The notes below the pieces were generated by a model, which saw nothing but the letters and a program-made list of their open reading frames with translations, was not told the DNA's origin and did not search any database. A program made the position numbers and the translations under genes. Of a stretch of 64,000 bases of DNA, positions 21,306 through 38,718 are shown in pieces (positions within the stretch are counted from its first letter, which is position 1; every line of letters begins with the position of its first letter). The DNA is from Exophiala sp. HKRS030 (Eukaryota > Ascomycota > Eurotiomycetes > Chaetothyriales > Herpotrichiellaceae): assembly GCA_023897205.1 (NCBI GenBank), contig JAHWDD010000006.1, positions 2,418,001 to 2,482,000 on the forward strand, in the 5' to 3' direction.

Positions 21306-24300
21306 CTAGCAATTCAGCCACACGCTCAGGGGGGTCTTGCCTAAGTCGCTTTCCGCACGGTTCTTGCGATACTGGCGTTGGTAGTAGTCTGGGGTGTTTG
21401 TCTCTTTCGAGTCGGCCTCCACCTGCCGTAAGATCTGGTCCATCCAGTCAGCCAACTCTGTCGCCTTCCATCGTAGCTTAGGATCGATGCGCAGAAGTTG
21501 TCGGATGGCCACTATAGTATTCTGAAAGGCTTGCATTCCCGCAAAAATCCGATCCAGCTCTTGGAGGGCTCGCTCAACGACGGGCTTTAGATTGCTCGAT
21601 CCTTTGTCGAATCCACCTGGTTCCTCAGACCAGAATACGTCGATAGAATCATATCCAGGAAAATTGCTGGGTCCTTCGGGAAACCAGGCTTCCTCGCCGT
21701 CCAGATAGAACCCAGACAGCCACAAGAGCAGCTCGAGGAAGATACAGCCAAGGCCCCACATGTCGATGGGGCGGGAGGCTACTCGAGTACCTCGCATCTT
21801 GTAAGCTTCAGGGGGCCAGTATGCTCTCGTGCCCGAGTCCACTTCATCCCATCCATCCCATTCATCCCATTCATCCCATTCATCCCATTCATCCCATTCA
21901 TCCCATTCATCCCATTCATCCCATTCATCCCATTCATCCCCCCAATGAACCTTACTGCCGGTGGCATTGTTCAACACACCCTGACCCAAGTTGGTGAACT
22001 TGAAACTACGGTATTGCCCCTCATGCTTCTCGAAGACAAGAATTTTTTCTGGCTTGATATTGTTATACCTGTGTTCTGGGTCGTTCTCTTCCAAGCTGTG
22101 TACGTGTTTGACTGCTGTCGCGAGTCCCTTCAACTGGTGCAGAAACCAGAGTACTACGGGTGTGGTCAAAGAGGGAGACTGAGTATTTTGGATGAAGTGT
22201 CGCAGGTCGCACCGGGCCTTGTCGTACAAGACGTATGATTTATGATGCTGAGTCCAGCTCATGATGTGTCCAACAATATGATCATGAGAAATACCGGCGA
22301 ATTTTAGTAGCATTGCTTTCTCCCGCTCAAAAGACTCATGTCGGGAAAATTCCTTTACGGCGAATTCACAATCAAGATCCTGCATTGCACAAGTCAGCAA
22401 AAGATCGTTAGCCATGGACAGTACGGTCTTACGCCAGAGACGTATTGATGAGACCGTTCTATCGTAACCTTGTACACCTTTCCGGAAGCTCCTCCTCCTA
22501 ACCAAGATAATCTTGGGCGGCCTGTGCGATCTTTATCTCCGGTATGGCATAGTGGCAGAACGTCGTCGTCAGATAGGTTATGATGCTTCAAGTTGCGAAT
22601 TTCTTTTCTGGCGAAGAATTTTGGCAGGCATCCAATGACATCGTGCGTATCGGTGTCACAATCCTCTTTATGACACCCAACATGAGTGTTGTCGTTGGGA
22701 TGTTCGCTAGGCTCGTCAGAGCAACCATGATCATTGATCAGATGTCGGAGATACTCCATATCGAGGCGTAGATATACGCAAATCGCGAACAGCTTGGAAG
22801 CTTTGTTGAGGACCTTGGTGATCAAGGCTTTGCAGGCGGCTTGATCAAGCTGGAGTTTGGTGTCCTCCTCGGCTATTCGCTCCACCACTTCTAGGCTGAG
22901 CAAGGCATCAATATCACAACAGGGGATATACTCTAAACCCAAGAAATTGACCTTGACCTTTCTTTTCAGCTCCGATTTGACCATTCCTGCGTATGACTGC
23001 CGCTCTGACTTCTTCGGCTTCACATAGCCGCAGTCCCAGTATACTTCTAAAGAGAAGTGTGCTTTGGGGTGCTGACGGATGAAACCGCAAATCTGCACAA
23101 TAGCGTTTTCGCTCAGAGCCTTGAAATCAAAGTGCATCTTGTCGAGAATTGCGTAATGTTCATCGTTGGGAAGTTCCGGTGGGCCTTTGACTCTGCAGGA
23201 GACGGTTCTCGTATACAGTGTTGTCGGTGCGAATTCGCCTCCTGCCCAAGCCTCCGATCTGTTCTTGATGGGATCGAGATCCTTGTAGGCTTCAGGCACC
23301 GTCCAGTCAAAGTTACGAAAGCTGCTCTCCGCAGAAATTCCTCCCTCATCAACGTGATAATAGACTTGGACAGATATTGTCCTTGGAAACAAAGGTACCG
23401 TGGGGTCTGGGTCGCGTATGACAGGGGGGGAATTTTGGTTTTCGAGAGCTAGTTATTTGTCTCTGCCTCTCCTGAGCTCTTGCTATTTGACCTTCGTCAG
23501 ATACGTTCAATGCTCTTGGTTCATGTTCTTTCGAGATTCCGTAATATAGTTTCCATCGATCCGTCTGAGCACGATTCTTGCGCGCGGTGAAGAGCGTTTC
23601 TGCGCATTGCAACATTCTGAATCGTACATCTGAGTTTTTTAGAAACATACGAACCTCCGCTTCAATATCGTCTATGCTCTCATTTTGGAACAAGCCAAAT
23701 CTTCCCAACCGCACGTTGAGTCTTTCGTAATGGAGACGGTTATCCACCATTTCGGCATACTTTGAGAGGTCGTGCCCCTCCACGGTAAGGTCTGAACTAC
23801 GACGTGAATCCTTGACCAATCTGGGTATGCTACCAAGCCAGCGTTTAAACTTGCCACGGCGACCGTTGGATTCTGATCCGAGGCTGAGCAGCATAGCGAC
23901 ATGACCCCTGCCTTCTTCTTCGCGTTGTGATAAACGTCTCACTTTCTCAAAGGCCAATGTCTCTAGGTTATTATTCCTGAGTGACCCACCTGTGTATTCC
24001 TCTCCATTGATGCTGAGAGGCTTGGAATATCTAATACGGGTATCAGAGCTGAAATGGCAAAATAGTACTGATACTTACGTTGGCGCAGCAGATGTTGCTC
24101 GTGCAGCCTGACGAAGTTCGACATCAACTGACTGCTGCTCACCGTCCTGGAAGCTGTTCAGAAAGGTAGGAGACATCGCAGTCTCTCCAACTCGGTGTAC
24201 GTAAAGCATGCTGCGACCAAGTCAATATTCCATTGCTTTCTGAGAAGAGCACACTGACGTTCTGCACATCGCCGGCTCCTCCTGAAGAAAGGGGCCGTCA

Positions 24301-25468
24301 TAGGTAGAAGCTAAAAACGAGGCAAGATCACGTTTCCCGCTCTCCCACTCCCATCGTTTGTATGCTACGATACATTCCTTGATACTCATCCTCAGTCGGC
24401 TTAGCATTATGGCGATCATGCTAGGTGGCTTAGAGTTAGTCTTCCTGCCCATGCGGCTGTCTTTATCCCGAAAACTCACCCTCCGGTATCTATACCAACA
24501 ACATAATCGAAGTAATGGCAGACGTTGAGAGGATTTAGGATATCTGAAGGGTCATTTGCAGCTTCCAAGTCCTTCAACATGTCCATCAGCGTCTCTAGAA
24601 CGATCAACGAAGACAGCCCGCCGACGCCTCCGCCATCTACCAAATAATGTGAGTGAAGATCTAGTCTCAAACAAAAGTAAGAACGAACCTATCGTCAGCA
24701 TATATTTTGGTGCCCAGGGTTTCACTTCATGAGAAGCTGACAAAGCGCTCTGATGTTCGTGGAGTACGTTCGAGGTATCTTTCGCAATAGAATCATCTGA
24801 TACCTTGCTTTGAATCCCTTTCGCCTTCTTTAAATGGCTCTGCCTAAATGCGCTTTCTGTCGCGATGATGTGCTCAATCAAGGCTCTTTTCGGGCCGTCG
24901 TGCAATCTCAAAGCCTGTTCTGTCCCGATAACGTCGCTGAGGTCGACGAGATCTAAGACCAGATCCATGACACGGTTACAGGCATCACGCAGTGGTGCAA
25001 GCAGTTCATCGTCAATTCTATAAGAGTGTTACCATTGTAAGATGAAAGCTTTTCACAAGTCGACGATAGAAGGGACGATTCCACATACTCGGAGACCGAG
25101 GCAAGATTCGCTAACAAGTCTTGTATCATTCCAAACTCGTCCTGGAATTTCTGCAAAATTTCACGTACTCTTTCCGAGGGCAGGCAGTGCTCAAAACTCA
25201 AGATCTTCTCGAAAGTGAGTTTTTGGTCTGATTCGGCGTTCATATCGTGCCACCAAATTTGCAACCTGAAATATGCATCTTTAAGTTTCATTGGGATGCC
25301 ATCCAGACAGGATGCAACCTGCGGCGGAAAGTGCGTCTGTGCTTGAGCGATGTTGTCTAAGGAGCGAAGAAACAATTTGTTGAGGGCAACAGTCGGCTCG
25401 AGGTCATTGATGTTGTCTTCCACAACAACTTCTTGCCCCTGTTGCCGGCCCGATATCGATGCCGACAT
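21306..25468 (-). CDS. Patatin-like pseudoenzyme fused to a pseudokinase (frameshifted)
   Basis: Seven exons: 25089-25468, 24689-25017, 24480-24636, 24259-24420, 24079-24210, 22433-24030 and 21306-22379. All six introns keep phase if one base is removed from a seven-G run at 23424-23430; about 1276 aa would result. The N-terminal 240 aa are helical and resemble fungal STAND-type N-termini. A patatin fold follows: TIDGGGVGGLSSL, then GIDTGG where the nucleophile elbow should read GxSxG, then ARATSAAPTYSKP, then TGG where the catalytic Asp-Gly-Gly should be. A linker of about 500 aa leads to a kinase fold: loop GGGASGKVYKV, Lys in FAVKEF, catalytic loop YNNIKPEKIL (Asp to Asn), NLG for DFG, and YWPPEAY for APE. 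Both active sites look dead. It may be a decoy or sensor, or a decaying gene. Confidence 0.72.
21844..21939. repeat. 9-bp coding minisatellite (Asp-Glu-Trp repeat)
   Basis: About ten tandem copies of a 9-base unit (CATTCATCC on the + strand, GATGAATGG on the coding strand) encode DEW nine times, then DGW. It keeps the reading frame, and every unit is near identical, so it is young or homogenised. It sits between the DFG-equivalent and APE-equivalent motifs of the kinase fold. Confidence 0.92.
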
Positions 25469-26155: not shown

Positions 26156-27732
26156 ATGATCCCGGAACCGTTTTCGATTACTACTGGCGTTCTTGGTATT
26201 ATTGGATTTCTCAACCTTGCCCGAGCAGGCGCACAAGCCCTATACAAAGATGTCCAGGCATACCAAGATGCTCCGAAAGATGTGTTGAAATTTTCGAAAG
26301 ATGCCAACTTGGTTGAGTATCGGATCGACCTTTGGAAGCGTGCTTGGCTCATTAGGCCTGATTCGCACCAGGATTGGCCTGTGGAACTTTGGGGTGAACG
26401 TGGCTGGGAGTCCATCTGCCACCTGATCGATACACTCGAGTCTCTCTCCCGGTCTATCGACGATATGTTCGAGCCATATCTCCAGGAGTTTGTGGCCGAC
26501 CAGCCTATGGCCAGTACTTCAGGTGGCAACCACGCGAGCGCTCCCTCCATAGCTGCCGATGCCCTGAGGAGGAGGGCAATGGATAAGGGCAACAAAGATC
26601 GCCTGGCAGCCAGAATATTCTGGCTCCAGAAGATTTCATACGCTCTAGCGAACAGAGAAAACCTCAAGACACATTTCGACCAATACAAAGGATTGATCGA
26701 TAGCCTTCGCAGCATGAGCAAGGAGGCATACTTTGAGTGTCACAACGTTGCCCGGTGCATTACAAACCGGGAGAGGAGGGAGATGACGATCAAAAGTATG
26801 CTTGTTGCCCAGGCTCTCAAAACAAGAGACGCCTCATGGGCGCTGCATCACTCCTGCAAAAGTGCCGGAAAAGGTGTAGTGGAGTTGGAACTCAGCCTCC
26901 TACGATGGAAATTGAATGAGAACACGGGGCGACCCTTCCACTCCGGCATTCCAGAACGACTGTGTTACTATGTGACACTGACACCAGACGCTCCCGACTC
27001 TCCCGCAGAACCACCAGGTGGTGCACCTGAGCGCAAGCTCGAGCTGCTGTTTGAAAGGCGCAATAGTTCGCCAATGCAATGCATCGCATCATTCGCGGAA
27101 GTTTGCGCGGCGCTTAGCGACAATCAAACCGCGTATCTGCGCTGTCCATGTGTTTCCGAAACCCAACCGAATCAAAGGCTCATATTCAAGTGCTGCACAT
27201 CAGACGATCCGTTCGCCTCTAACGAGCGCCGACAATCGAGCCTAAAAGACCTTATAACCAGCTCGGCAACAAGAGCTCAGCTTTCGGAGATGTCGTTACG
27301 GGACAGGGTTGAAGCAGCTTACGTATCGCAGAATGCAGTTTCCTACTGCTAGTGACTTGCTGGCTGTCGGCAATGGAAAGTGCCCACATCACTCGGTCGA
27401 GCTCAACATCTGGTGGAGCCGAACCTCGCTATCGCGTACTTGTCGGACCGTGTTTAGGAGATAATGACGGTCTCTTCAATCTCCAAACCCAACGCCTTGG
27501 ACAGCTTCTGCGAGAATTGGCCTTGGGCTCAGATTTCACCTCATCGTACGATAACGAACGAGATTTCATCCTTCTAGTCAGGGAAGTCGGCGAACAATAC
27601 CAGAAGGCAATAGATTTCTGTTGTAAGAGACCTCCTCCGGGCTCTGCCCTCAGCCTCAGGACACGCAAGGAGTATGACAACTATTACACCGGAATACTAG
27701 CAGACTTCTTTGAACATGTCGTGTTGCCGTAA
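26156..27732 (+). CDS. Helo-like N-terminus, DUF7580-like protein, frameshifted
   Basis: The first frame runs 26156-27352 (398 codons) and the second to 27732. The N-terminus (PFSITTGVLGIIGFLNLARA, then YKDVQAYQDAPKDVLKF) resembles the Helo-like N-terminal domain of fungal STAND and incompatibility proteins. Later blocks (SLRDRVEAAYV, LLRELALG, EVGEQYQKAIDFC) match the C-terminal domain of the DUF7580 type common in fungi. The reading frame breaks at about 27349. Spacing of the family pattern between SLRDR and the following TCWL is kept only if one base is missing there, and no intron fits. So this is a one-base frameshift, or a base-call error. It diverges from the patatin-pseudokinase gene and may be its functional partner; no catalytic motif is seen. 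Confidence 0.62.
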
Positions 27733-36263: not shown

Positions 36264-37772
36264 CTAGTATGCACAGAGACCACCCCCAGCGTCTTCCATA
36301 CTCCAAGCTCCAGCGAGGCCAACGATCTGAGGCTCATCAGCGTCGAGGTCAGCAGCTGTCAGTCTGCTCTCAAATGCTATTTCCGCATCTGCTGCAGTAC
36401 GCCGGCCACCAGTGAGCAGTTTTCTGGCCCAATCATCAATTGCTGGTTCACCAGTTTCGTCCCGAGCCTGTTTCAAAAAGGGAATGAGTGCGGTCCCTCC
36501 TGTGCCGCGCATCTTCTTCTTTCTCTGGGGCTGGTCGGCTGTGTGAGGCTGATCGTAGCGGACTGACGCAATTCCTTTCGCCATTGGAACGTGATCAGAA
36601 CTGCTTTCTCGTCGCGTCCTGCTGAGACTTCGAGACTCTCTGCTTTTCACAATAATGTATCTGGACACCATCTGAATGTGTTTGTCACGTAGAGTTCTGA
36701 GCATGGCCAAACATGCGTCATACGCAATGCACAACTCTGTACGAGATCTGTTGTTCTCAACGTAATCTCGAATGTTGGCTACTCCTTCCACAGCTTGGAG
36801 GAACCTTCTGTGAGGGCCAGGCATGTATTGCCTCATCTCATGAATAAAGTTATGTCGAGGCCGTGGTGCTGCTCCTTGCTCGAGTTCCGACTCTGACGTC
36901 GTTTCGTCCTTTTTGGAACCTGTCGGCCTATGCTCGACACCCAGAACAATGTCGAAGAATTGTATCATACTGCTCTGGGCATTGGAGCCACCGCCGTACT
37001 GACGCCAAGTTGCTCGGCGGCTGCCGTCATCATAGAAAACACCTTGAGGTAAGCCTGCATCTTTCATATTCTTGCTACCCGCGAGGAAGGGTCTGATGCG
37101 ATGATAAAAGACGTGCGGATCGCAATTCTCATACATCCTGACCAACAGAGTGCCCAGCTCGTCTAATGTCTGAGCAAAGGATTGTAGACTCTTTGTAACA
37201 GTGGCGCAATCATCGTCTCTTGCGGCTTGAATGGCCTTTAACATGATTGGTATGGACGGTCCGCCTTTTGCTTCCATGGCCACACTGACCAAATAGAACC
37301 ATTGCTCATCTAGCGAGCCCGTAAATGTGGTTAGTGTGGAGAGGTTGTCGAGGTCGAGGGCTTCGGAAAGAAAGATGGGTTTAAAATTCCACAAGCACAC
37401 GCTAGCGTATGTAGCGACTGGAGGCAACTCGAGGTGGTCTGACACCTGGAGAAGCGGGTATGTTATGGAAGGTGGAAGTCGTTCTGATGGTTTATCGCCG
37501 CCCCAGATGTAGCCATGCGCCATGAATGTGAGGATACTGTATGCTCTGCGCCACTCGGCTTCGGTCTCAAGATGGACCGCAGGTATGATGGGTAGTCTGT
37601 CAATGACAGTCCGGAGTCTTTTGGATAGGAGAAGGGACTGGAAGTTGTTCATGATCCGCTCCCAACGGTCGTAGACAGGATGTGAGAGGCATTGTGTGGG
37701 ATTCTCGGCAGGGAGGAAGCCTCGGTCGGGGGAAACCCCGTAGTCTGTAGGTCGAGGAACTGGGGGAAGCAT
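36264..37772 (-). CDS. Indoleamine 2,3-dioxygenase (IDO family)
   Basis: A haem dioxygenase that opens the indole ring of tryptophan to N-formylkynurenine, the first step of the kynurenine route to NAD. Single exon, 502 aa, within the size range of fungal IDOs. The block RDYGVSP-like at the N-terminus, the SLDEQWFYLVSVAMEAKG block and the haem-pocket region YMPGPHRRFLQAVE are present. The SIRDYV-like element (ANIRDYVENN) and AYDACLAMLRTLRDKHIQMVSRYII follow, the latter carrying the proximal His. An insertion of about 45 aa rich in Ser/Arg sits before the C-terminal helix. Fungi often carry several IDOs; this may be a BNA2-type or a paralogue. Confidence 0.9.
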   Translation of the reverse strand: MLPPVPRPTDYGVSPDRGFLPAENPTQCLSHPVYDRWERIMNNFQSLLLSKRLRTVIDRLPIIPAVHLETEAEWRRAYSILTFMAHGYIWGGDKPSERLPPSITYPLLQVSDHLELPPVATYASVCLWNFKPIFLSEALDLDNLSTLTTFTGSLDEQWFYLVSVAMEAKGGPSIPIMLKAIQAARDDDCATVTKSLQSFAQTLDELGTLLVRMYENCDPHVFYHRIRPFLAGSKNMKDAGLPQGVFYDDGSRRATWRQYGGGSNAQSSMIQFFDIVLGVEHRPTGSKKDETTSESELEQGAAPRPRHNFIHEMRQYMPGPHRRFLQAVEGVANIRDYVENNRSRTELCIAYDACLAMLRTLRDKHIQMVSRYIIVKSRESRSLSRTRRESSSDHVPMAKGIASVRYDQPHTADQPQRKKKMRGTGGTALIPFLKQARDETGEPAIDDWARKLLTGGRRTAADAEIAFESRLTAADLDADEPQIVGLAGAWSMEDAGGGLCAY

Positions 37773-38718
37773 TCTGAAAGCGCCGGTGTTAACAGATACA
37801 AATTCTCGGGTGCCTCGAAAGCTGTGGCGCGCAGCGAATACGAAAGGCGCTGCAAGGTCGAAAGAAAAAATAAAAGTATCACACAGCCATGGTAGCTACG
37901 ACTGTCACAGCAGATATAACTCTCCAGTTGATATTGGTCAGCAGCAATGGTCCATGATGAACAAAAGGTCACGAGGAGGGTGAGAACGAGGGCCAACGGA
38001 TGGTGTGAGGAAGAGAAAAAGAAACCCACTGGCATGGGGAGGAGGTCGGGAACGGATCGGAGGAAGACAATTTGCACCAGCGCGAAAGGCTTAGGCTGTC
38101 TCGGCACCGGTTCGCGAAGACTCGACCAACCTCTCAAAGAAAATAGGAGTATATGATGGCATTGATGATGTTTGTACTGCTTCATCAGCAACAACTTGAT
38201 AATGTCATATCTCGATAACTAGAGGCGTAAAAAGATGTTTGATATGCAGGGTATCATCGGCCTGTCCGGGGGTCGTCGGATATTAGGATGCGAGACCGCA
38301 TGGCGAAGTCTTTGTCTGCCCCTCACGTGGAGTCTGGAACAATTTATTTCCGAACCGTCGGAGGACCGAGTGCTTACTTAATGCTCCGTATGAACAGCCA
38401 CCCATAACGTCAACATACACAATGTGCACATAGGATATCCCAGGTATTCAGTACGAGTGTCGCCAAACACAACCTATTCGGGGATGAAAGAGATCAAGCA
38501 CGAGTATCAGAAGAATTCATGATGGGTCCGAGTCCCAAGAGCCGCTATATCTCGTTCTGTAGATCCTACATTGCGGAGATTGCCGAATTTCCCTGTCGAT
38601 ATCTGACGAAATAATGAAACCAGATCGACAACGTGCAAGTCTGATCTGTTTCTATCCAATTTTGATCCTGTGAAATATACGAAAGTGTAAGGCTATCAAT
38701 CCAGTTTTCCTAATCAAC
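37773..38718. promoter_or_regulatory. divergent promoter region, IDO and MDR alcohol dehydrogenase-like gene
   Basis: About 950 bases between divergent starts. ORFs here on both strands lack family resemblance. A near copy of the intergenic 9-mer (GCTCCGTAT) occurs near 38382. No RNA gene seen. Confidence 0.45.

Follow-up and report, generated by a model that had tools for sequence, protein, structure and literature searches.

On its minus strand, between positions 25468 and 21306, the 64,000-nt stretch of the Exophiala sp. HKRS030 genome analyzed here (hereafter, the window) carries a gene that fuses a patatin domain to a kinase domain, and catalytic residues are lost in both. We estimate at roughly one half the probability that this product is a lineage-restricted double pseudoenzyme, which would bind or sense rather than catalyze. 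In the data searched, the fusion was seen only in the HKRS030 fungus and in Exophiala oligosperma. In the encoded protein, an orphan helical N-terminus is followed by patatin, alpha/beta and kinase domains in that order. Its gene contains six introns, the number that an original prediction made before this analysis had proposed; they measure 48-71 nt and all have GT-AG ends.

In Pfam scans of the two halves, the first matched Patatin at residues 234-410 (E = 6.4e-14) and the second matched Pkinase (E = 1.8e-12); nothing else exceeded the cut-off, and no NB-ARC or NACHT domain was found in these scans or in that of P0113, the E. oligosperma protein. The patatin half agrees with both the PF01734 profile and the predicted fold, and the second half with the PF00069 profile. 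The helical N-terminus gave a match to Rx_N below the cut-off (0.049), which was absent from the listing when the whole half was scanned. When the joined protein was used as a query, two matches were obtained among the 7993 candidates scored, a weak patatin match (P0114) and P0113, a protein of 1252 residues with three member sequences that matches at 94% over 100% of the query. Identity to P0113 is approximately 97% in each half (560 of 580 and 649 of 670 aligned positions), with a 24-residue insertion and two residues at the junction left uncounted. P0113 reads without a break across the junction; the codons of the window on either side match it, and no intron separates them. The Pfam scores and the existence of this orthologue exclude a chance match, and the predicted patatin-kinase fusion is supported. 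Orthologues with intact motifs had been named beforehand as a refutation; the sole orthologue found shows the same catalytic losses in an unbroken frame. As P0113 has the same fusion and the same lost residues, both the fusion and the losses are older than the split of the two fungi.

The active site of the patatin half was examined in an alignment of 111 rows, consisting of the window protein, 108 proteins from the patatin-half search and two from the joined-protein search. At the nucleophile position, Ser is found in 105 rows, Gly in four and Asp in two, the latter being the window protein and P0113, and the predicted Ser-to-Asp replacement in GIDTGG is thereby borne out. The catalytic Asp is present in 101 of the rows, and the window protein has Gly in this column. 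Its TGG lies one column away, so that the Asp-to-Thr replacement read earlier from this motif does not hold. In addition, Gly stands in place of the Arg/Lys that the oxyanion loop has in 99 of 111 rows, and a glycine of the GTG motif has become Glu. Dead patatins are not unique in this set, although the elbow Asp is confined to the window protein and P0113. In four other fungal patatins (P0029, P0080, P0083 and P0111), the nucleophile Ser is replaced by Gly and the catalytic Asp is also lost, being Ala or a gap (a gap in two). One of these, P0083, is named HET-E-1 and has WD40 domains; dead patatins may recur in proteins of this type.

The kinase domain was compared with a paralogue in the same genome (939 residues, a single open frame at C1:578853-581672), the alignment spanning the alpha/beta domain through the kinase. 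The catalytic loop reads YNNIKPEK in the window protein and HHDLKPGN in the paralogue, so that the catalytic Asp has become Asn; the Mg-binding Asn after the KP motif has become Lys, and SDFG of the paralogue corresponds to TNLG. The catalytic-loop Asn and the NLG motif were both as predicted. CDK8 aligns likewise at the catalytic loop, but weakly, with 7.9 bits for that stretch. The Gly loop (GGGASGKV) and the beta3 Lys in FAVKEF, both aligned to the paralogue, are retained, and an alpha-C Glu in FEREKAML is plausible, having been assigned by eye.

Both halves have unfused relatives. The patatin-half search yielded at least 108 proteins from a candidate list limited to 7996 by shared words, while the kinase-half search yielded four (P0001-P0004; sources 'lgn' for three and 'jgi' for one), which have no Pfam match, carry long leaders of their own and are presumably metagenome open reading frames (ORFs). 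These ORFs drop out of the alignment at the position of the intron in the kinase N-lobe, as though they also met an intron there. For this intron, a first donor guess at 22441 was replaced by the GTAAGA at 22432, which is consistent with P0113. By eye, a C2H2-like C-terminal tail is present in the standalone patatins P0005, P0006 and P0008 and absent from the NLR-type P0036 and P0054 (NLR, NOD-like receptor). The window protein has neither this tail nor the leader of the kinases, as would be expected if a deletion had joined two neighboring genes. Its alpha/beta domain is 46-51% identical to those of P0001-P0003 and 30% identical to that of P0004. It keeps 101 of the 122 columns fixed in the three unfused relatives, and the same count for these relatives gave 101/110, 101/119 and 101/121; in a FastTree tree of this domain, the fused branch is similar in length to those of the unfused relatives. 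A search of the genome with each half revealed no second close copy. A homoeologous unfused copy on contig C8 was considered and rejected: 49,951 bases there match the window only at an indoleamine dioxygenase gene (blastn, E 1e-10), whose C8 paralogue is 82% identical, and the region is not syntenic; no unfused ancestor of the fusion was found in it.

Under the preferred reading, a patatin gene without the C2H2-like tail of some relatives was joined to a kinase gene without its leader, and, as the shared losses show, both domains became pseudoenzymes before the two fungi split. The protein would most likely work without catalysis. With its Gly loop, Lys and Glu still in place, the pseudokinase would probably bind a nucleotide or a partner. 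The dead patatin fold may be a module that binds lipids, partners or effectors, and the helical N-terminus could pass on the resulting change. The most plausible setting would be that of a regulator or decoy of active patatin and kinase proteins in immunity or allorecognition. A more specific version, which we regard as rather improbable, is a double-pseudoenzyme receptor or decoy that mimics two active classes of fungal immune effectors. Its output would come from the helical N-terminus, and a fast-changing loop of Trp, Asp and Glu in the activation segment would act as a switch of specificity or length; the logic would resemble that of MLKL, with a patatin inserted centrally.

Several observations weigh against a functional binding or sensing protein. 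The gene is broken in the HKRS030 assembly: the assembled patatin frame meets a stop at 23349 after 613 residues, and the kinase frame, which lies one base off, is open from 23452 and has its first Met only at 23137. The frameshift noted in the original prediction is therefore present, and it is due either to an error in the sequence or to a null allele of recent origin. An intron in its place was considered, but the 56-nt GT-AG candidate (23504-23449) gives the wrong frame, and other donor and acceptor pairs at the junction were set aside by eye because P0113 codes through that stretch. Constraint was assessed with a simulation of substitution types (2000 neutral runs), used in place of the ratio of nonsynonymous to synonymous substitution rates. 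The 41 substitutions between the window protein and P0113 have a mean BLOSUM62 score of -0.39, compared with a neutral mean of -0.435 (standard deviation 0.257); 897 of the 2000 runs scored as high, and 207 were likewise free of stops. This test failed to reject neutral drift, and selection is unproven. Moreover, the patatin half keeps 32 of 41 near-invariant columns, the ninth lowest of 93 rows (18 of the 111 being dropped for short coverage), and P0113 keeps 30. In favor of constraint, all nine columns lost in the window have the identical new residue in P0113. The predicted fold of the kinase half reached a pLDDT (predicted local distance difference test) of 47; the input alignment contained no relatives for most of its kinase domain. 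Finally, the orthologues found form a single cluster, P0113 comes from a database and is assumed to be a computed gene model, and nothing ties the gene to immunity.

These observations also bear on the strongest alternative, namely that a deletion joined two genes, that activities no longer under selection were lost and that damage is now building up as the frame offset and an expanding repeat. We consider such decay somewhat less probable than a binding or sensing role, and close behind it. The truncation at 613 residues, the substitution pattern indistinguishable from neutral and the low count of near-invariant columns agree with it, as does a 9-bp repeat, absent from the original prediction, of 10.9 copies with 97% matches between copies, which is longer than in P0113. 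However, the 1252-residue frame is unbroken in E. oligosperma, neither half has an internal premature stop, the alpha/beta domain is conserved about as well as in the unfused relatives, and the GT-AG ends of all six introns are intact. A gene in decay had been offered as an alternative from the outset; it gains from the frame offset and the unrejected neutral drift and loses from the unbroken frame of P0113.

It is improbable that the locus holds two genes, one for a patatin terminating at 23349 and another, farther downstream, for a kinase, with the E. oligosperma fusion an artefact of gene calling. The halves do lie in different frames as assembled, and the kinase relatives P0001-P0004 are standalone proteins with their own leaders. 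However, P0113 continues over the junction in agreement with the codons of the window, the leader of these relatives is absent here, and no Met precedes 23137 in the kinase frame, so that a kinase starting on its own would be without the first conserved strands. Least probable of all, and very unlikely, is a new chemistry with the elbow Asp as nucleophile or a migrated acidic residue in the kinase: haloalkane dehalogenases do employ an Asp nucleophile, and the elbow Asp is common to the window protein and P0113 where the other four rows without Ser have Gly, but the partner Asp, the oxyanion Arg/Lys and a GTG glycine are all replaced, as are all three acidic or Mg-binding positions of the kinase.

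Published inventories of the effector domains of fungal NLRs include both Patatin and Pkinase (PMC9815663, PMC4986451). A patatin-kinase fusion was found neither in literature titles and abstract openings nor in the excerpts of PMC12881547, PMC9815663, PMC10197012, PMC12258605 and PMC4986451. The window protein resembles fungal patatin-like phospholipases, whether standalone (approximately 520 residues) or NLR effectors of the PLP-1 type, in PF01734, the predicted fold, the DGGG loop and the ATSAAPT and NN motifs; it differs in lacking the nucleophile Ser, the catalytic Asp and the C2H2-like tail and in being fused to a kinase, and, unlike the NLR effectors, it has no NB-ARC domain or repeats by Pfam. 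Death mediated by PLP-1 requires patatin activity (PMC12881547). With the fungal leader-bearing alpha/beta kinases (P0001-P0004 and the C1 paralogue) it shares the alpha/beta domain, and with the paralogue also the region through the kinase, but the leader is replaced by a patatin protein; the catalytic Asp, Mg-binding Asn and DFG Asp are kept in the paralogue, and the P0001-P0004 records stop short of the catalytic region. A helical N-terminus and a pseudokinase within one protein recall MLKL and the fungal proteins in which, according to a review (PMC12881547), a HELL domain is linked to a kinase or pseudokinase, but here a dead patatin lies between them and the N-terminus, at most a candidate four-helix bundle of the 4HB/HeLo family, matches Rx_N only below threshold. 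In Sordariales NLRs, nine C-terminal kinase domains have been proposed as integrated decoys (PMC12258605). These likewise combine a C-terminal kinase with an effector domain of immune type, but they are complete NLRs with CHK2-like kinases, whereas the kinase in the window is of another kind and no NB domain was found by Pfam.

The coordinates of the fusion gene and of a divergently transcribed neighbor are given in the table.

Table. Positions in the window of the parts of the patatin-kinase fusion gene and of the adjacent ORF.
Feature	Position	Strand	Remarks
Exon 1	25089..25468	-	Contains the start codon; beginning of the orphan helical N-terminal domain; gapless alignment to P0113
Exon 2	24689..25017	-	Remainder of helical N-terminus and first patatin strand
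Exon 3	24480..24636	-	Oxyanion loop DGGGVGG and nucleophile elbow GIDTGG; Asp286 at 24490-24488
Exon 4	24259..24420	-	Patatin domain, downstream of elbow
Exon 5	24079..24210	-	Patatin domain, conserved ARATSAAPT
Exon 6, patatin part	23453..24030	-	Lost catalytic Asp (Gly401 at 23990-23988), patatin C-terminus; assembled frame continues to stop at 23349
One-base frame offset between patatin and kinase halves	23440..23452	-	P0113 continuous at the same place
Alpha/beta domain (also in the unfused kinase relatives); Gly loop of the kinase, GGGASGKVYKV	22433..23452	-	
Intron in kinase N-lobe, GTAAGA...GCAG	22380..22432	-	
Last exon, rest of pseudokinase and stop	21306..22379	-	Catalytic-loop Asn at 22061-22059; NLG Asn at 21992-21990
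9-bp tandem repeat, in-frame Trp-Asp-Glu run in activation segment	21843..21940	-	Stretch 24 residues longer than in P0113
First ORF of divergently transcribed neighbor gene	26156..27349	+	403 residues; sub-threshold HeLo match in the first 200

The neighboring ORF had no other match in its own genome. When its first 200 residues were scanned, HeLo was matched over most of the profile at an E value of 0.085, below the cut-off, and this match was unlisted in the scan of all 403 residues; the gene could be a functional, membrane-active partner. Farther along, an indoleamine 2,3-dioxygenase gene is open over 543 residues (36267-37895, minus strand). Several divergent matches to it occur in the rest of the genome, and the two on C21 and C13 contain many stops. 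An Rfam scan of the whole window gave no matches. The genome comprises 59.8 Mb in 50 contigs, which is large compared with the 25-38 Mb of black yeast genomes, and the one paralogue pair tested was not syntenic.

Relatives that keep their catalytic residues are available for both halves, for the kinase in the same genome, and the gene would thus offer a clean case for the origin of pseudoenzymes and their use as decoys in fungi. If it is merely decaying, it would instead be an example of how chimeras of such genes arise and die.
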